DNA of 64,000 nucleotides, taken from positions 27,382 through 91,381 of the IMG/VR virus record IMGVR_UViG_3300047509_000177. The stretch is one strand, 5' to 3'. Source of the stretch: a virus. Every line of letters starts with the position of its first letter. The first letter of the stretch is position 1. Under the pieces are notes generated by a model. That model had not been told where the DNA came from, made no database searches, and saw only the letters and a list, made by a program, of their open reading frames with translations. The translations under genes were made by a program, and so were the position numbers. Below are positions 16,740-60,419 of the stretch, one piece after another.

Positions 16740-16835
16740 TGCGCCTGGGGAGAATTGAACTCCCGACCTCCTGTTTGAAAGACAGGCGCTCTTTGAGACC
16801 CCGAAGGTTCTCGTTTACCACTGAGCTACAGGCGC
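16740..16835 (-). tRNA. tRNA with UUC anticodon and a hairpin inserted in the D-loop
   Basis: Acceptor GCGCCTG/CAGGCGC, D-stem GCTC/GAGC, anticodon stem CCTGT/ACAGG with loop CTTTCAA (anticodon TTC, Glu codon GAA), T-arm GGGAG-TTCAATT-CTCCC, discriminator A. The body without the insert is 72-73 bases. After AGTGGTAA the D-loop carries about 23 extra bases that fold as GAGAACC-TTCG-GGGTCTC: a 7-bp stem with one A-G mismatch and a UUCG tetraloop. The acceptor and A73 look more Arg-like than Glu-like, so amino-acid identity is uncertain. No CCA encoded. Confidence 0.75.
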
Positions 16836-16841
16836 ATGAAG

Positions 16842-16924
16842 TGCGGGAGACAGGATTCGAACCTGCAAGCCCTTTCGGACAGACCCTCTTAAGGGGTCCG
16901 CGTCGCCAATTGCGCCACTCCCGC
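16842..16924 (-). tRNA. tRNA-Leu(UAA)
   Basis: Acceptor GCGGGAG/CTCCCGC, anticodon arm GACCC-CTTAAGA-GGGTC (anticodon TAA), long variable arm closed by GTCC-GAAA-GGGC, T-arm GCAGG-TTCGAAT-CCTGT, discriminator A. A normal class II leucine tRNA reading UUA, a frequent codon in these AT-rich genes. It lies 6 bases upstream of the UUC tRNA on the same strand, so the two are probably processed from one transcript. Confidence 0.9.
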
Positions 16925-43420: not shown

Positions 43421-43474
43421 AATAATAATAAGAATTGGCACAAACATACATGACTCACCCACAGAACAGAGGGC

Positions 43475-43885
43475 ATGAAAGAGCGTGGAGGGCAAGTTCG
43501 CGCGGAAGTTATTCCTAACGCGAAAAGCGACACGCTCAAGCCCCGTGTTCGCAAGGCCGTACAAGCCGATTCAACTCTTTACACGGACCAGTGGAAGGGC
43601 TACCACGGCCTCGATGAGAACTTCGACCACCAGACCATCAACCACGCGGAACATTATGTTGACGGTCGAGTCCACACAAACGGAATTGAGAACTTCTGGT
43701 CACTACTAAAGAGAAGTTTGCATGGAACTTATGTATCAGTAGATCCTTCTCATCTTTTTAGATATCTTGACGAGAGAGTATTTGCTTTCAATCAAAGATA
43801 TCTCAGTGATTACGGACGTTTCGAGACTGTGCTACTGGCCGTGACCGGCCGCCGCTTGACGTACCTGGAATTGACTAGCACCTAA
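43475..43885 (+). pseudogene. Truncated IS1595-family (ISXO2-like) transposase
   Basis: 136 codons. GGQVRAEVIPNAKSDTLKPRVRKAV, then TLYTDQWKGYHGL (second catalytic Asp region), and HTNGIENFWSLLKRSLHGTYVSVDPSHLFRYLDERVFAFNQR (third acidic site and C-terminal signature). The zinc ribbon and first Asp of a complete IS1595 transposase (about 300 residues, compare 59442-60419) are missing. GC-rich codon use sets it apart from phage neighbours. Probably inactive. Confidence 0.8.
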
Positions 43886-43926: not shown

Positions 43927-43961
43927 GAGCCCCGGCCGGAGGTCAGTCCGAACCGGGGCTC
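43927..43961 (+). terminator. Strong GC hairpin 5' of a tRNA
   Basis: GAGCCCCGG (43927-43935) pairs perfectly with CCGGGGCTC (43953-43961), with GGA/TCC pairing inside. It could terminate the transposase relic transcript; it ends 3 bases before the tRNA. Confidence 0.5.
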
Positions 43962-43964
43962 TAT

Positions 43965-44038
43965 GGTGGCGGTAGTTCAATTGGAAGAACTCCCGACTTA
44001 AAATCGGGATCGTGCGGGTTCGAGGCCCGTCCGCCACC
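43965..44038 (+). tRNA. His-type tRNA body with UAA anticodon
   Basis: G-1 at 43965 pairs with C73 at 44038, the hallmark of tRNA-His. Acceptor GTGGCGG/CCGCCAC, U8 A9, D-arm GTTC-AATTGGAA-GAAC, anticodon arm CCCGA-CTTAAAA-TCGGG, short variable loop ATCGT, T-arm GCGGG-TTCGAGG-CCCGT. The anticodon is TAA (codon UUA, Leu) where GTG is expected. The short variable loop and C73 exclude a normal Leu tRNA. No encoded CCA. If functional and charged by HisRS it would put His at UUA codons. Confidence 0.75.
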
Positions 44039-44039
44039 T

Positions 44040-44078
44040 TTCTTTCAATCAAGAGGTTATCGAAAGAAAGAATTTTTT
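44040..44078 (+). terminator. Rho-independent terminator after the tRNA
   Basis: TTCTTTC (44040-44046) pairs with GAAAGAA (44062-44068), followed by a run of six T at 44073-44078. Confidence 0.55.
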
Positions 44079-44200
44079 GGGAAAGTATCAATGATTTTCT
44101 TTGCTTCGCTGTTGCGGATGCTTTGGGTGAGTCATGTATGTTTGTGCCAAAGGATTTGCAGTCCTTTCCCTATCAATCTCGGGCATCGCCATACGCAGCT

Positions 44201-44764
44201 TTACGCTGCTGGTGTTTCTGGTGTCGGGGTAACTTCCGGCGCGGGTTCTGCCGGGTGTTCCTGTTCTACTGGAGGAGTAGGATTAACTGGAGGCTGTTCG
44301 GGAGTTTCACTCGGCGGAGTTTCTGCCGGAGGAGTCACCGCAGGAGCAGGAACTAGGCTCTTAGCCTTTTCTACTACGGGACCAAGGCTTTCCTTGACGC
44401 TGCGAATTGCGGCTAATTCTGCGTTATTTTCTGCCAGCTTGGTGGAGTCGGCAGCAAGCTCAGAGTTGGCCTGCGTGATTGATGCTTCCTTTTCAGTAAG
44501 AGAGGTCTGTAGAGAAGTAATCTCAGTAGCAAGCCGAGGGACAACTTCGGCTAGAGTAGTCTCCTCTACGCCCAATTCTTCTGCAAGTGTAGTCATTTTG
44601 TTTAACCTTTCGTTGAGTTCACAAAGTTTATTTTTGATATCATATAGTGTATCATTAAATGCAATATGATTAGTTAGTTCTCTATTATATTGAAGCTTAA
44701 ACTGTCTTTCTACATAATGCTCAAATTCTTCACCATTATTTCTAGCTATATTGTTTACATTCAT
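44201..44764 (-). CDS. Coiled-coil protein with Pro/Glu-rich tail
   Basis: 187 residues. Helical N-terminus, heptad coiled coil at about 40-130 (LYDIKNKLCELNERLNK, ATEITSLQTSLTEKEASITQ), then Pro-rich tail with PPAETPPSETPEQPPVNP. GATGGAGAAT site upstream. The tail resembles the relic at 42533, suggesting the island split or duplicated this family. Possibly a virion or internal scaffold protein. Unrecognised. Confidence 0.55.
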   Translation of the reverse strand: MNVNNIARNNGEEFEHYVERQFKLQYNRELTNHIAFNDTLYDIKNKLCELNERLNKMTTLAEELGVEETTLAEVVPRLATEITSLQTSLTEKEASITQANSELAADSTKLAENNAELAAIRSVKESLGPVVEKAKSLVPAPAVTPPAETPPSETPEQPPVNPTPPVEQEHPAEPAPEVTPTPETPAA

Positions 44765-44938
44765 TTAATTCTCCATCTCAAAAATTCCTCCAACGGAAAA
44801 TTTCCTAGTGTGCTACAAATGTTCTACAAGTAGCTATCTTATCCGAGACTTTGATAGCTGATAGTGGCGATCGACCGGGAATTAGCATGTTATATATATT
44901 AGTTATGCTAATGCCTTCTCAGACCACAATTCACAAGT
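44765..44938. other. Intergenic region with hairpin and repeat motif
   Basis: No gene seen. Holds the 5' region of the 44201 gene, one copy of the TTGTAGCACA motif (minus strand, about 44807-44817), and a perfect 8-bp inverted repeat ATTAGCAT/ATGCTAAT at 44881-44912 with an AT-rich loop, a possible terminator. Confidence 0.45.
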
Positions 44939-45169
44939 TTATAGCTGTACTACCCATTCTACTTGGTTTACGTTTACTAATGCTTTTATCGGCGAGTTTT
45001 GTCCGCCAGTGGGTTTTTCTTCTACTTCAACAAATCCTGCACCATCTTCTTTAGTTGCTTCTTTTGCTAATGTTTTCCATTCTGTTAAAGAAGTTGGTAT
45101 AGAACAATCTTTCTTTTCGGTATCCCCAGGAGAACCATAGGAATTTAGATATATTCGCACGCCTGCCAT
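44939..45169 (-). CDS. Small hypothetical protein
   Basis: 76 residues, MAGVRIYLNSYGSPGDTEKK... ending VNVNQVEWVVQL. Its C-terminus resembles that of the gene upstream (VNDLSSVIEY), so the two may be paralogues. Two bases separate them. Confidence 0.6.
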   Translation of the reverse strand: MAGVRIYLNSYGSPGDTEKKDCSIPTSLTEWKTLAKEATKEDGAGFVEVEEKPTGGQNSPIKALVNVNQVEWVVQL

Positions 45170-45171
45170 AA

Positions 45172-45438
45172 TTAATATTCTATCACTGAACTAAGATCAT
45201 TTACATTAAGAGCAAATTTCTGTGTAGAAGTATTAGGGATTTCTAGACCTTGAGGGTCTTTAGTTCCAACAGCTAATTCAAATTCAAGAAATCCTGATTC
45301 TTCATGCACGGCAGTTTTTGCTTTTTCGAGATAATGGGCTAGGGTTGCAGATACCCCACCAACTTTAGAAGCATATTTTCTTTCTACATTGCCTGGAGCA
45401 GCAAATGTTTTGTAGTTCAGCAAGAGCTTTTCAGCCAT
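45172..45438 (-). CDS. Small hypothetical protein
   Basis: 88 residues from ATG at 45438, preceded by GGGAGAT at good spacing; the frame extends upstream without a ribosome site. MAEKLLLNYKTFAAPGN... LEFELAVGTKDPQGLEIPNTSTQKFALNVNDLSS. Beta-rich; related in pattern to the next gene. A GGCGC-aaatc-GCGCC palindrome lies about 40 bases upstream. Confidence 0.6.
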   Translation of the reverse strand: MAEKLLLNYKTFAAPGNVERKYASKVGGVSATLAHYLEKAKTAVHEESGFLEFELAVGTKDPQGLEIPNTSTQKFALNVNDLSSVIEY

Positions 45439-45531
45439 TTGTAATATCTCCCATGAGAGTATTTTCTTTGTTCTATTTCGGCGCAAATCGCGCCGAGAGT
45501 GTCATGACAGGAGACAGTATACAGATAAATT

Positions 45532-45571
45532 GAGGGCTCTACTCATAGCGGCTACTACAGATAGAGCCCTC
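45532..45571. terminator. Bidirectional-type hairpin
   Basis: GAGGGCTCT (45532-45540) pairs perfectly with AGAGCCCTC (45563-45571) around a 22-base loop, in the gap between diverging gene sets. No gene seen between 45440 and 45697. Confidence 0.5.
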
Positions 45572-45697
45572 TGGCGGGAACGTTGATGGAGCGGGCTTTA
45601 ACGTGCCCATGGTGAGTATATCAGAATTTCGGTAGTGGGTCAGTTTGAAATCTCAGCCTACAGCAGGTTGTAGTTCGCGCATGTCGAATCGAGAGCT

Positions 45698-46051
45698 ATG
45701 GCCTGGTTCAAGACTCATGGATGGCGCGTGCTCCTCGCGGCTGCTGTGCTCGCTATCGCGTTCTGGGCAAGCAATGAACACGGGGTACCGAAGAATCTCC
45801 CGGCCCCTGCTCTCGGCTGGCGGCTGCTCTTCCATGTAGAGCGTGCCGTAGTCTTGCTGACGGCCATTGGCGCGGTGCTTTTGGTCGGTTGGCGAGCACT
45901 ACACGGAGAGTTTCCCATCAAGTTCGGACAACTAGAATATGCTGCTAAAGAGACGGCCGATAAGACCGACAGTCTAACTGGAGTTTTTGAGCAAAGACTT
46001 CAACTCGTAGAGGGTTTGATCGGTATTGCGGACCCGGCCCCTAAGGAGTAG
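45698..46051 (+). CDS. Two-TM hypothetical protein, GC-rich
   Basis: 117 residues. Hydrophobic helices at about 9-26 (GWRVLLAAAVLAIAFWAS) and 46-66 (HVERAVVLLTAIGAVLLVGW), then a helical soluble tail. Base composition is GC-rich, unlike the phage core, so it was probably acquired from a host or another phage. Role unknown. Confidence 0.6.
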   Translation: MAWFKTHGWRVLLAAAVLAIAFWASNEHGVPKNLPAPALGWRLLFHVERAVVLLTAIGAVLLVGWRALHGEFPIKFGQLEYAAKETADKTDSLTGVFEQRLQLVEGLIGIADPAPKE

Positions 46052-46063
46052 AATGAGGACTTA

Positions 46064-46237
46064 ATGACGACAGAGCAAAACAAATATTCGTACACCGGTG
46101 TCAACCTAACCCCTACTTCGTCTGAGCATGATCAACGTCGTGCAAAGCTTCTGGAGCAGGCCCGCAGAGAAGTTCCAGCACTACGTGAACAGGTGGCAGC
46201 AGATCGAGCCGCTCTGCGTCGTATCGCTAAATCGTAA
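46064..46237 (+). CDS. Small charged helical protein
   Basis: 57 residues, ATG 12 bases after the previous stop with GAGGAC upstream. MTTEQNKYSYTGVNLTPTSS then RRAKLLEQARREVPALREQV. GC-rich; helical C-terminus. Unknown. Confidence 0.5.
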   Translation: MTTEQNKYSYTGVNLTPTSSEHDQRRAKLLEQARREVPALREQVAADRAALRRIAKS

Positions 46238-46247
46238 GAACGCAGCT

Positions 46248-46278
46248 AGGAGGGAAAGACGAAACTAACTACGAAACG
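46248..46278. repeat. 31-bp inverted repeat, left arm (partner 47478-47508)
   Basis: Perfect inverted copy of 47478-47508. Contains two ACGAAAC heptamers (46259-46265 and 46271-46277) 12 bases apart. The pair bounds a 1.2-kb segment holding three odd tRNAs, a zinc-ribbon gene and a structured RNA. Confidence 0.85.
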
Positions 46279-46299
46279 CCGGGCAAACATTGTGACGTA

Positions 46300-46323
46300 T
46301 AGCACAAAGACACCCTTGTGCTA
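46300..46323. terminator. Hairpin downstream of the minus-strand tRNA
   Basis: TAGCACAA pairs perfectly with TTGTGCTA around an 8-base loop, 16 bases 3' of the tRNA on the minus strand. The right arm contains the motif TTGTAGCACAAG repeated after the next tRNA. Confidence 0.5.
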
Positions 46324-46338
46324 CAACTTCGCTAGATG

Positions 46339-46422
46339 TGCGGCAGACGGGACTCGAACCCGTAATCCGTGGTGGGAACCCGGGCTCTAGCCGGGCGCGT
46401 TTGCCAGTTTCGCCACTGCCGC
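46339..46422 (-). tRNA. Leu-type class II tRNA body with AGA anticodon
   Basis: Acceptor GCGGCAG/CTGCCGC, TGGCG D-arm with GGCAAAC, anticodon arm CCCGG-CTAGAGC-CCGGG, variable arm with TCC-caccac-GGA, T-arm ACGGG-TTCGAGT-CCCGT, discriminator A. Body and A73 are those of tRNA-Leu, but the loop centre is AGA (Ser codon UCU). A34 is rare in bacterial tRNAs. Not a normal Ser tRNA, which would have G73. Alternative: a Leu(UAG) tRNA that lost one loop base. Confidence 0.75.
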
Positions 46423-46520
46423 ATGTAGTGCTCTACCCCCTCCAGAGCAGTCGAGAAATACCCCAACCACCAAGTAACGATTGATACTAGAAATCTAATG
46501 ATGCTTGTGCTACAAATATG

Positions 46521-46605
46521 TGCGGCGGACAGGATTCGAACCTGCACGGTGCGATGCACCCCGACTTGATGAGGGCCGGTGCGTCTACCATTCCGCCACC
46601 GCCGC
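46521..46605 (-). tRNA. Leu-type class II tRNA body with CAU-centred 9-base loop
   Basis: Acceptor GCGGCGG/CCGCCGC, D-arm GGCGG-AATGGTAGAC-GC, anticodon stem CCGGC/GTCGG around the 9-base loop CCTCATCAA (CAT at the centre, U33 kept), variable arm GGTGC-ATC-GCACC, T-arm GCAGG-TTCGAAT-CCTGT, discriminator A. Leu identity elements but a Met-codon anticodon in an enlarged loop. A perfect 10-bp hairpin abuts its 5' end. Confidence 0.72.
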
Positions 46606-46632
46606 GAGTCCCGGCCTGATCCGCCGGGACTC
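46606..46632. terminator. 10-bp GC hairpin abutting the tRNA 5' end
   Basis: GAGTCCCGGC pairs perfectly with GCCGGGACTC around a 7-base loop, starting at the base next to the tRNA. Confidence 0.55.
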
Positions 46633-46761
46633 CGCGCATTCTAGCCGCCTACTTCTGACCTTCTGCTCGCTCAATCAGCTGCTATCAGGCGGTTCGGACG
46701 GAACTTCTATCCGCTGCTGATCGAGGACTTATGCACAGTGCTCGGCTAAGATCGGCTGCAC

Positions 46762-46855
46762 GGAGGGCGCTCCTAAGTGGTGTGTGGGGCCGGGCCTTCA
46801 TCCCGGTGACCCGTCTGAGACACGGCGGCGATTGGTTCGATTCCAACGCCCTCCG
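46762..46855 (+). tRNA. Class II tRNA with 8/4 cloverleaf, Ser-like, UUC-centred loop
   Basis: The acceptor forms 8 perfect pairs (GGAGGGCG/CGCCCTCC) and the T-stem then has 4 (TTGG-TTCGATT-CCAA); read as 7/5 it would have an A-C mismatch. D-stem CTCC/GGGG, anticodon arm CCGGG-CCTTCAT-CCCGG (loop centre TTC with C instead of U33), long variable region with CCGT/ACGG, discriminator G. An 8/4 body with a long variable arm and G73 matches described allo-tRNAs charged by SerRS; tRNA-Sec also has an 8-bp acceptor, but the loop does not present UCA normally. Confidence 0.65.
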
Positions 46856-46948: not shown

Positions 46949-46967
46949 GTTTCGTCGTTAGTTTCGT
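46949..46967. repeat. Tandem GTTTCGT site, copy 2
   Basis: GTTTCGT-CGTTA-GTTTCGT, followed by AGATGCTGA; about 35 bases upstream of the GTG at 47002. Probably an operator or promoter-linked site. Confidence 0.6.
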
Positions 46968-47290: not shown

Positions 47291-47309
47291 GTTTCGTAGG
47301 TCGTTTCGT
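47291..47309. repeat. Tandem GTTTCGT site, copy 3
   Basis: GTTTCGT-AGGTC-GTTTCGT followed by GGATGCTGA, directly after the zinc-ribbon gene and before the structured RNA. Confidence 0.6.
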
Positions 47310-47359
47310 GGATGCTGAGATTTTAAAGGCTCGAATCATGGTTGGTATGCTTGTGGCTT

Positions 47360-47456
47360 TCCTAATAGGGCACAGGCCGGGAAGTGGAGCGGGCAGCACC
47401 CGGCCAGGAGAGCCCTTGGAAAAGGCCCTGTAGTATCTGGCCGGGTGTCCGCTTTA
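47360..47456 (+). ncRNA. Candidate structured RNA
   Basis: GCGG (47389) and CACCCGGCCAG (47397-47407) pair with CTGGCCGGGTG (47437-47447) and CCGC (47449): an 11-bp perfect helix, an asymmetric internal loop and a 4-bp base. Inside, CCTT/AAGG forms a smaller hairpin, and ACAGGCC upstream could alternatively pair with GGCCCTGT. No protein gene and no T-arm motif, so not a tRNA. Strand is a guess; a complex terminator is the alternative. Confidence 0.45.
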
Positions 47457-47477: not shown

Positions 47478-47508
47478 CGTTTCGTAGTTAGTTTCGTCTT
47501 TCCCTCCT
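47478..47508. repeat. 31-bp inverted repeat, right arm, with tandem GTTTCGT site
   Basis: Perfect inverted copy of 46248-46278; holds GTTTCGT-AGTTA-GTTTCGT (47479-47497). Confidence 0.85.
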
Positions 47509-47533: not shown

Positions 47534-47605
47534 CGCCCCTGGCAAGAGTCGAACTCGCATCTCTCGGGTAGAAACCGAGTGCCTTTTCCGTTGGGCCACA
47601 GAGGC
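47534..47605 (-). tRNA. tRNA-Arg(UCU)
   Basis: Acceptor GCCTCTG/CAGGGGC (one T-G pair), D-arm GGCCC-AACGGAAAA-GGC, anticodon arm CTCGG-TTTCTAC-CCGAG (anticodon TCT), T-arm GCGAG-TTCGACT-CTTGC, discriminator G. Normal Arg tRNA for AGA, the main Arg codon in these AT-rich genes and rare in GC-rich hosts. A GCGCTG/CAGCGC hairpin lies 11 bases 5' of it. Confidence 0.88.
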
Positions 47606-49295: not shown

Positions 49296-50603
49296 TTATA
49301 CCTTAGTTTTCAATAAAGGAAACATTATAACATCTCTAATATTCTTCTTTCCCAAGAGTAGCATACAAAGACGATCTATTCCAATACCAACTCCGGCCCA
49401 AGGCAGTGCTCCCATTTCTAGAGCTTCGATGTAGTTTTGATCGTATGGGTCATATTCTCGTATATTTTCTCCAAATTCATTTGTGAAAAACTTTTTGCTT
49501 TCTGGTTCCTTTAGGCGCGTTTCCTGCTCATGTGGGTCATTCAAGTCTGATGCTCCAGAAGCAATCTCCATATCATCTATATATAGCTCCCATGCCTCTG
49601 CTCTGTTTCTATGTCTACCTTTTCCAATTGATTTTCTACTCAAGGGCCAATCAGACGATGGTAAGTCTGCATCGAAAATCATAGGATACTCATGAGGGCA
49701 TTTTATTGAACATGACACATTTCTAATTAAATCTTCAGTAAAACAAATCATATCTAGGTCAGTCTTACAACTCTCAAATATCTCTAGATTAGTGAACTCT
49801 GGGTTGTGTTCGGGACTAATTCCCTCATTTCTAAAGCACCTTGAGAAAGCATATACTCTATCGAACCCGCCAACGAGTGCGCGCTTAAGGTATAGCTCTG
49901 AGGAAATAGATAGGAAAAATTGTTGTCCAAGAGTATTGTGTTGTGTTGTAAATGGCTTCGCAGTTGCTCCACCATAGATGGGTTGGAGTATGGGAGTTTC
50001 AATCTCAACGAAGTCTCTTTCATTCAGATACTTCCTTATCTCAAATACTATTTCTGCTCTCTTCTTAAATACCTCGCGCGAATCCGCGCTGGACATCAGA
50101 TCCTGCTCGCGGTGCCTGTACTTATGCTCAGGGCTTTTCAGGCCATTTCGCTTATCGGGAGGCTCTCGTAGTGCCTTGGCTAAAAGCGTGAAATTAGAAA
50201 TTAAAAGAAGGGGCTTCCCACGCGGATTCTGGCCTAGTGCCCCTTCTACTCCGACCATATCTCCAAGATCGCATTTTATAACGCTATCAAGGACTATTTG
50301 AGATTTTGCGAAATCTAGTTTTCCTGACTCTATGGGGCCATAAATTAGTTGGATTGATCCCGTCTGGTCAAATAAGTCAAAGAATATAGTCTCTCCGTGA
50401 TGCCTTCGAGCAGATATTCTTCCTGCTATCTTACAAAAATTATCTGAAGGAACATCAACTTTTTCTCTAGTAAGGATTTCATGGAGAGTTACGGTTGATG
50501 GTCGATTTAAAACATATTGAATTGTTTCTCGGCCAGGAAAATCGCGCGGGTAGGGGTTAGAATTATTCTGTATCTTCTTTAGTCTCTCTATAGAATTACT
50601 CAC
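49296..50603 (-). CDS. lysS: Compact class II lysyl-tRNA synthetase
   Basis: 435 residues against about 490-510 in bacteria. N-terminal OB fold (CKIAGRISARRHHGETIFFDLFDQTGSIQLIYG, residues 57-89), then motif 1 (VEIETPILQPIYGGATAKPF, ~199-218), motif 2 (RCFRNEGISPEHNPEFTNLE, ~255-274) with the ATP-binding Arg, and motif 3 (GVGIGIDRLCMLLLG, ~404-418). A segment of about 60-70 residues between motifs 2 and 3 is missing or reduced. The OB fold excludes the EF-P ligase EpmA. Charges tRNA-Lys, or possibly a modified target. No Lys tRNA is visible in the window. AT-rich like its neighbours, so long resident. Confidence 0.9.
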   Translation of the reverse strand: MSNSIERLKKIQNNSNPYPRDFPGRETIQYVLNRPSTVTLHEILTREKVDVPSDNFCKIAGRISARRHHGETIFFDLFDQTGSIQLIYGPIESGKLDFAKSQIVLDSVIKCDLGDMVGVEGALGQNPRGKPLLLISNFTLLAKALREPPDKRNGLKSPEHKYRHREQDLMSSADSREVFKKRAEIVFEIRKYLNERDFVEIETPILQPIYGGATAKPFTTQHNTLGQQFFLSISSELYLKRALVGGFDRVYAFSRCFRNEGISPEHNPEFTNLEIFESCKTDLDMICFTEDLIRNVSCSIKCPHEYPMIFDADLPSSDWPLSRKSIGKGRHRNRAEAWELYIDDMEIASGASDLNDPHEQETRLKEPESKKFFTNEFGENIREYDPYDQNYIEALEMGALPWAGVGIGIDRLCMLLLGKKNIRDVIMFPLLKTKV

Positions 50604-56070: not shown

Positions 56071-56253
56071 TCATACATCTTCTGATTCGTCAAGGGGGTC
56101 TTTTCTACATCGGGGACAAATATCTAGTTTGTCTCTATATATATAACCGTTTTCGTGCTTAGCATATTCTCGTGCGACTTTTGCTCCTTCTGTAGAAATA
56201 GGAGCCGGATCCCCGCACTTATCACACATCACATAGCAAGCTCTATGGATCAT
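56071..56253 (-). CDS. Small zinc-ribbon protein
   Basis: 60 residues. CDKCGDPAPIS and DICPRCRKDPLDE give two CxxC pairs 30 residues apart. 4-base overlap with the gene upstream. Possibly nucleic-acid-binding. Confidence 0.62.
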   Translation of the reverse strand: MIHRACYVMCDKCGDPAPISTEGAKVAREYAKHENGYIYRDKLDICPRCRKDPLDESEDV

Positions 56254-59441: not shown

Positions 59442-60419
59442 TCACAAGAGTTTGATCTGCGGCGTGAGCAGATTCCGGTAGGGATGAGGTTCGGTCACGA
59501 CTCCCTGCTCGATCAGCCGGTAGAACAGCAGGCCGCGAGAGCGGCTTGCGCGGCGGTTGAAGCGGAACACGTACTCGTCGCAGTAATAGTCCAACTGCTC
59601 GCGCGACATGCCGCCCTGATGCGTGCCGAGCAACCACCGCTTGAGCAGACTGGCGACGCGGTGAGCGTGCGGCATCGTGACGTGCGCGTCCGCTGCCTCG
59701 GGGTCGCTCATGTTCGTAACTTCATGCTGGTAGCCGTAGCGGCTGATCGAGCTGTAGCTCCCGAAGGCGTCCGTGTGGATGATCGAGCCACGCGCCACGT
59801 TGTCGAGGATGAACTCGATGAGCGTCTCGGCCTTAGTGTCCGGCACGCGAGCAAGTCGAAGGCGTCCAGCCTTGAGACGTTCGCCAGTGCGGCCGTGAGC
59901 CTCGACCGCGATCACAACGATCGCCTTCCCGTGTGGCGAGCGACCACCCGCCTTCTTGGTCTTGATCCCGCCGATAAACGTCTCATCCACCTCGACCACA
60001 ACACCGGGACCACCGATCATGTCCCGGCCAGGGCGCACCATCGCACGGCGCAGCTTGTGCATCCACGCCCACGCCGTCTGGTAGGAGCCGAAGCCAAGCT
60101 CACGCTTCAACCCGAGCGCGCTCACACCGTTCTTCTGACTAACGACGTGCCACATGACGTGGAACCACACACGCAGCGGATAGCGTGTCTTGTCGAAGAT
60201 CGTGCCAGCCGTCACGCTCGTGCGCTTGCGACACGCCGTGCAGCGCATAAGGCCGCTGCCCATGCGCCAATAGTCGCCTATGACACCGCAATGCGGGCAC
60301 ACAAAGCCGTTGGGCCATCTGATCTTCTCGACGTACGCGAGACACGCCTCCTCGCTATCGAACCGCTCGATGAACTCGCTGAAGGTGCGGGGGTAATCCG
60401 CGCTCGCAGCGGGGGTCAT
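59442..60419 (-). CDS. IS1595-family transposase
   Basis: 325 residues, complete. N-terminal zinc ribbon (FVCPHCGVIGDYWRMGSGLMRCTACRKRTSVTAGTIFD), HTH region (WHVVSQKNGVSALGLKRELGF), catalytic core with first Asp (VVVEVDETFIGGIK), second Asp (IIHTDAFGSY), and C-terminal YCDEYVFRFNRRASRSRGLLF carrying the third acidic site. Starts at the overlap with the passenger gene at 60416. GC-rich, foreign to the phage. Confidence 0.93.
   Translation of the reverse strand: MTPAASADYPRTFSEFIERFDSEEACLAYVEKIRWPNGFVCPHCGVIGDYWRMGSGLMRCTACRKRTSVTAGTIFDKTRYPLRVWFHVMWHVVSQKNGVSALGLKRELGFGSYQTAWAWMHKLRRAMVRPGRDMIGGPGVVVEVDETFIGGIKTKKAGGRSPHGKAIVVIAVEAHGRTGERLKAGRLRLARVPDTKAETLIEFILDNVARGSIIHTDAFGSYSSISRYGYQHEVTNMSDPEAADAHVTMPHAHRVASLLKRWLLGTHQGGMSREQLDYYCDEYVFRFNRRASRSRGLLFYRLIEQGVVTEPHPYRNLLTPQIKLL

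Follow-up and report, generated by a model that had tools for sequence, protein, structure and literature searches.

Four phage tRNA genes with conflicting bodies and anticodons: possible mimics or decoys

The 64,000-nucleotide stretch of viral DNA analysed here (the window) comprises bases 27382-91381 of a 91.4-kb record, IMGVR_UViG_3300047509_000177, and carries between 43.9 and 46.9 kb an island of four tRNA genes in which the body of each RNA is of one identity and the anticodon of another. An initial annotation, made from the letters alone, had described this conflict; ARAGORN places all four genes at the same positions, and near-complete cloverleaves are found for each. The reading that we tentatively prefer is that these odd RNAs are expressed tRNA mimics or decoys, in which selection acts on the fold and not on decoding identity. 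We infer their transcription, their decoy role and the target of that role from the evidence outlined below, which includes a tRNASec-like RNA kept in an unrelated phage and a locus at which two different tRNAs stand intact behind the same leader.

Identity of the four bodies

Three of the four genes score above the gathering threshold of the Rfam tRNA model (59.9, 54.7 and 45.2 bits), while the one at 46762-46855 is missed. The first gene (43965-44038, plus strand) has a class I body of His type and the anticodon UAA. It scores 59.9 bits, its minimum free energy (MFE) structure is the cloverleaf, and its encoded G-1:C73, U8-A9 register and 5-nt variable loop can be read directly from the sequence. 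Among 50,697 phage records, tRNA-His genes from Aeromonas phages match it best over the full length (78%, E 2e-6), in keeping with the His-type body first proposed. Two genes on the minus strand, found by ARAGORN and by Rfam, have class II bodies with A73: one at 46339-46422 with the anticodon AGA, and one at 46521-46605 with the 9-nt anticodon loop CCUCAUCAA and nominal CAU, the MFE structure of which is a cloverleaf. Both have a long variable arm and a Leu-type D-arm, their nearest annotated relatives are tRNA-Leu, and a nearest-neighbour test with the anticodon masked (against 88 tRNAs from four other phages) also assigned them to Leu, as had been proposed. In the control of this test, Leu recall was 10/10 and precision 10/14. 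It is a weak guide to His identity, because overall accuracy was 53% and the single His call was wrong. The UAA, AGA and CAU genes all have 7/5 bodies.

The fourth gene (46762-46855, plus strand) encodes a class II RNA with an 8/4 branch, G73 and the anticodon loop CCUUCAU, nominally UUC. It had been called Ser-like; the branch and the discriminator stand, but the body is better described as tRNASec-like than as plainly Ser-like. Its best Rfam family is tRNA-Sec (RF01852), at 45.1 bits (E 4e-8), although the two scores obtained with this family, 45.1 and 39.1 bits, lie under its cut-off of 47 bits. Positions 34-36 hold UUC, the UCA expected of tRNASec being displaced by one base, and position 33 is C; the loop of the Sec model is CUUCAAA.

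Judged on its sequence, this RNA shares its structural traits with the allo-tRNAs (Mukai et al. 2017; review: PMC7609411), which are known from Acidobacteria, Proteobacteria and Clostridia. Where allo-tRNAs have an 8/4 or 9/3 branch, it has eight acceptor and four T pairs. It combines a long variable arm of 4-5 bp with a lengthened anticodon stem of 6 bp (from the MFE structure of its homologue in contig L076 and a check of the pairs), and it joins Ser identity, as G73 and a GGA/UCC acceptor start, to a nominal UUC that is not a Ser anticodon. The likeness is incomplete, in that the L076 homologue is 7/4, since pair 8 is G-A, the loop has C33, and the other three island genes are 7/5. Irregular genes resembling allo-tRNAs have been tied to transposons and to soil transcripts (PMC7609411).

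Conflict between anticodon and isotype is weak evidence when taken by itself, because conflict at the level of scores is common in phage tRNAs. For instance, anticodon and model isotype disagree in 14 of the 26 tRNAs of Shigella phage Sf14 (PMC12482277). In Sf14 the disagreement is one of profile scores, whereas here it reaches the class (I/II), G-1:C73 and the length of the loop, and what stands out is that class, discriminator, -1 base and loop length are in conflict together. The geometry of decoding is also affected, through the 9-nt loop of the CAU gene, C33 in the UUC gene and an 8-nt loop in a related GGA tRNA described below; two of the four odd genes have a canonical 7-nt loop with U33. 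The pattern of a class I tRNA with UAA is rare, occurring in 7 of 2.9 million viral contigs, with five of the seven real, and in 12 stretches of bacterial genomes that are pattern matches and thus candidates. A supposed second His-like UAA tRNA (contig L022) was dropped, since its discriminator is A73 and its acceptor is 8/4 or shifted. A separate class I tRNA with UAA, in a viral array of 29 tRNAs (L080, 8365-8438, minus strand), has a Leu-like acceptor and A73, and seems to be a Leu tRNA that has lost its former variable arm.

Conservation, leader hairpins and mobile elements

The Sec-like RNA recurs at 87% identity over 100 nt in two contigs (L076 and L081, identical over their shared stretch) of a phage, G007/G009, that has almost no gene similarity to the window phage, and the homology stops within about 4 nt of the RNA. 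Such conservation in an unrelated phage suggests a role outside ordinary protein synthesis, possibly that of a decoy. Between the window and L076 copies the 28-nt anticodon arm is identical and the D-stem has two compensatory changes; in a neutral simulation, 1.5% of runs lose no pair (P 0.015). An apparent further match in contig L082 was rejected as chance, since it sits in coding DNA and ARAGORN calls no tRNA there.

The UAA locus can be compared with a syntenic relative, G001 (IMGVR_UViG_3300043787_000063; about 70% DNA identity to the window phage). There the same leader hairpin precedes another class I tRNA, which has the anticodon GGA, an 8-nt loop and A73. All 21 stem pairs are kept across 19 differing stem bases, an outcome reached in none of 200,000 neutral simulations. 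One tRNA may thus have been replaced by another behind the same leader, both remaining intact. Conservation in other phages, which had been suggested as a check, was found in part: it holds for the Sec-like RNA, the UAA locus holds another tRNA in G001, and the AGA and CAU genes are without a homologue.

The leader itself is a GC-rich hairpin (43927-43961, plus strand; z -4.1 for the 50-nt upstream fold) directly 5' of the UAA tRNA and conserved before the GGA tRNA of G001. A hairpin resembling it stands directly 5' of the CAU tRNA (46606-46632, minus strand; z -5.0). The normal Leu(UAA) and Arg(UCU) tRNAs of the window are likewise preceded immediately by hairpins; z lies between -4 and -7 for these, for the odd UAA and CAU genes and for the GGA gene, with weaker upstream folds for the AGA (z -1.8) and UUC (z -1.6) genes. 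Because leaders of the same kind precede both, odd and normal tRNAs would appear to form one kind of transcription unit. A scan for the sigma-70 consensus gave no clear excess of promoters.

A truncated IS1595-type element surrounds the UAA gene; it is bounded by 30-nt terminal inverted repeats (43435-43464, plus strand, and 44121-44150, minus strand; 97% complementary) and also encloses the C-terminal part of an IS1595-family transposase (43475-43885, plus strand; Pfam PF12762, E 5e-30, profile positions 43-153 of 153). The terminal repeat was not found in other viral contigs. The AGA, CAU and UUC genes are in turn flanked by the arms of a 31-nt inverted repeat (46248-46278, plus strand, and 47478-47508, minus strand; 100% complementary), and translations point to transposase remnants in the islands of G001 and G007 too. 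The odd genes were likely captured by mobile elements.

Anticodons can also be followed on the normal tRNAs. As the initial annotation had noted, the window has a normal class II tRNA-Leu(UAA) (16842-16924, minus strand) and a normal tRNA-Arg(UCU) (47534-47605, minus strand), both supported by ARAGORN, Rfam and the nearest-neighbour test. A tRNA-Glu(UUC) is present as well (16740-16835, minus strand; Rfam), with a hairpin inserted in its D-loop, so that two of the odd anticodons, UAA and UUC, are also found on normal tRNAs that the phage encodes (P 0.03 with weighting for codon use). The body of this D-loop-hairpin tRNA occurs in at least six phages (the window phage, L075, L076, L077, L078 and L080 among them), and six different sequences carry UUC in four cases, UGC in G001 and CCU in L076. 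Its acceptor, anticodon and T stems show compensatory changes, and the sequence of the D-loop hairpin is unrelated between copies. ARAGORN misses or misreads it, and the annotated phage collection holds no full-length match. In this phage group, anticodons turn over on conserved bodies.

Decoys, relics or missense tRNAs

In the mechanism that we tentatively prefer, the phage would express the tRNA-shaped RNAs of the island, selection would act on their fold rather than on their decoding identity, and the RNAs would occupy host factors that attack or handle tRNAs, such as anticodon nucleases or tRNA-modifying toxins, with decoding left to the ordinary phage tRNAs. The evidence counted for it includes the conservation of the Sec-like RNA, the 21 of 21 pairs at the UAA locus, the leader hairpins, the lost decoding geometry, the turnover of anticodons, their duplication and the standard meanings of the codons concerned. 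A known parallel is that of phage tRNAs that evade anticodon nucleases (PMC10264068), which likewise have altered anticodon loops in a context of defence; in those tRNAs, however, body and anticodon agree and decoding is resupplied, while here the identities conflict. Several points weigh on the other side. The AGA and CAU genes have no homologue, so selection on these two is conjectural, and the stem integrity of the Sec-like pair is, taken alone, modest evidence. Rescue from retron Eco7 by tRNA needed the anticodon (PMC11555353), which fits the supply of working tRNAs and not of decoys, and no tRNA-repair gene was seen among the open reading frames scanned.

Almost as likely is that the genes are decaying or transiently retained relics, brought in by insertion sequences, that would turn chimeric or have their anticodon identity eroded by substitutions and loop insertions or deletions, and whose stems would be intact only because the genes are young. 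This account is most plausible for the two Leu-type genes, which are without homologues, and it agrees with the insertion-sequence remnants around the genes, with the loop changes (the 9-nt and 8-nt loops and the shifted UCA) and with the fast turnover of phage tRNA sets, the set of the window phage being only partly common to G001. It sits less well with the fact that an unrelated phage retains the Sec-like RNA, with the paired stem changes and with the retained leader hairpins; the His-type body, moreover, differs from GUG at all three anticodon bases and yet has no broken stem pair. Simple decay is less likely at the UAA/GGA locus and in the Sec-like RNA, but it is not disfavoured in the two Leu-type genes.

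Programmed mistranslation had been raised from the precedent of Streptomyces, and we consider it unlikely. The odd RNAs would here be missense tRNAs, charged with His, Leu or Ser by virtue of their bodies and decoding UUA, UCU, AUG and GAA, and the resulting mistranslation of phage or host proteins would be either deliberate or tolerated, as with tRNAProX and ProRSx or with allo-tRNAs. Neither LeuRS aminoacylation nor SerRS depends on the anticodon (PMC9976931), which makes charging by the body plausible for the two Leu-type RNAs and the Sec-like RNA; it is less sure for the His-type body, as bacterial HisRS also reads the anticodon (PMC9976931). In E. coli, allo-tRNAs do place Ser at sense codons (PMC7609411), and the two canonical loops with U33 would suit decoding, but C33 and the 9-nt loop should impair it. 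In a codon alignment with G001 (8,021 codons), UUA was aligned with Leu in 73% of cases, UCU with Ser in 49%, AUG with Met in 63% and GAA with Glu in 57%. These standard meanings led us to reject recoding of the whole phage, and since UUA, UCU and GAA are its most-used codons for Leu, Ser and Glu, efficient misreading would harm the phage first. The tRNAProX of Streptomyces (PMC10365949) similarly joins the body of one identity to the anticodon of another, but its bodies are all Pro and a dedicated ProRSx is encoded alongside; here the bodies are of His, Leu and Sec-like type, and no ProRSx-like partner is encoded, the only synthetase found being a lysyl-tRNA synthetase (LysRS). The absence of reassignment, the self-harm of misreading and the duplicated UAA and UUC anticodons together favour a role that needs the shape of a tRNA and not correct decoding.

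It is very improbable that this divergent LysRS (435 aa, class II; 49296-50603, minus strand) forms a pair with the odd tRNAs and charges one or more of them with lysine: its gene stands 2.7 kb away from the island and is conserved in G001, the protein is shorter than its cellular counterparts, and the window has no tRNA-Lys, yet no odd tRNA has a Lys-like body or anticodon, the OB domain that usually reads the Lys anticodon is kept, and the enzyme may simply supplement that of the host.

Genomic surroundings and wider meaning

The window has a GC content of 41% and encodes tail, portal, DnaB, primase, PolIII-alpha and RecA/UvsX-like proteins, the portal showing distant kinship to those of Gordonia phages. 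Searches with the portal, terminase and IS1595 proteins returned one syntenic relative or none. An intact IS1595-family transposase lies at 59442-60419 (minus strand), in an inserted block of 60-65% GC. Around the island, the motif GTTTCGT-N5-GTTTCGT is repeated at 46259-46277, 46949-46967, 47291-47309 and 47479-47497; it is also present in G001 and resembles an operator or promoter element. A noncoding repeat at 47322-47450 consists of the motif GGCANAGGCC...GGAGC and, after it, a long GC-rich hairpin whose sequence varies. The window has one copy and G001 three (bases 44240, 46771 and 47273), all inside tRNA islands. Over the best-kept 69 nt, copies from the two phages share 91% identity, and no Rfam family matches the element. 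In G001, a tRNA-like remnant that lacks the D-arm follows the Ile(UAU) tRNA near base 56120. Odd tRNAs are also found in an isolated actinophage, Microbacterium phage Cece (OP068343; L071), which has Leu tRNAs of class I length and His and Trp tRNAs of class II length and could serve as a laboratory model for such phage tRNAs.

On a broader scale, there could be a class of conserved and expressed phage tRNA mimics in which body and anticodon have been uncoupled under selection and which act as decoys for host immunity directed at tRNAs. Its families would be the tRNASec-like UUC RNA and, perhaps, the D-loop-hairpin tRNAs with their swapped anticodons, a generalization that we put forward as doubtful but conceivable. 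Standard annotation mostly overlooks or mislabels two phage tRNA families, the Sec-like and the D-loop-hairpin tRNAs. Charging of the odd RNAs would make them missense tRNAs that a virus carries naturally. If they are expressed and selected, the anticodon alone would not suffice for reading phage tRNA genes, and a role other than decoding would become directly testable.

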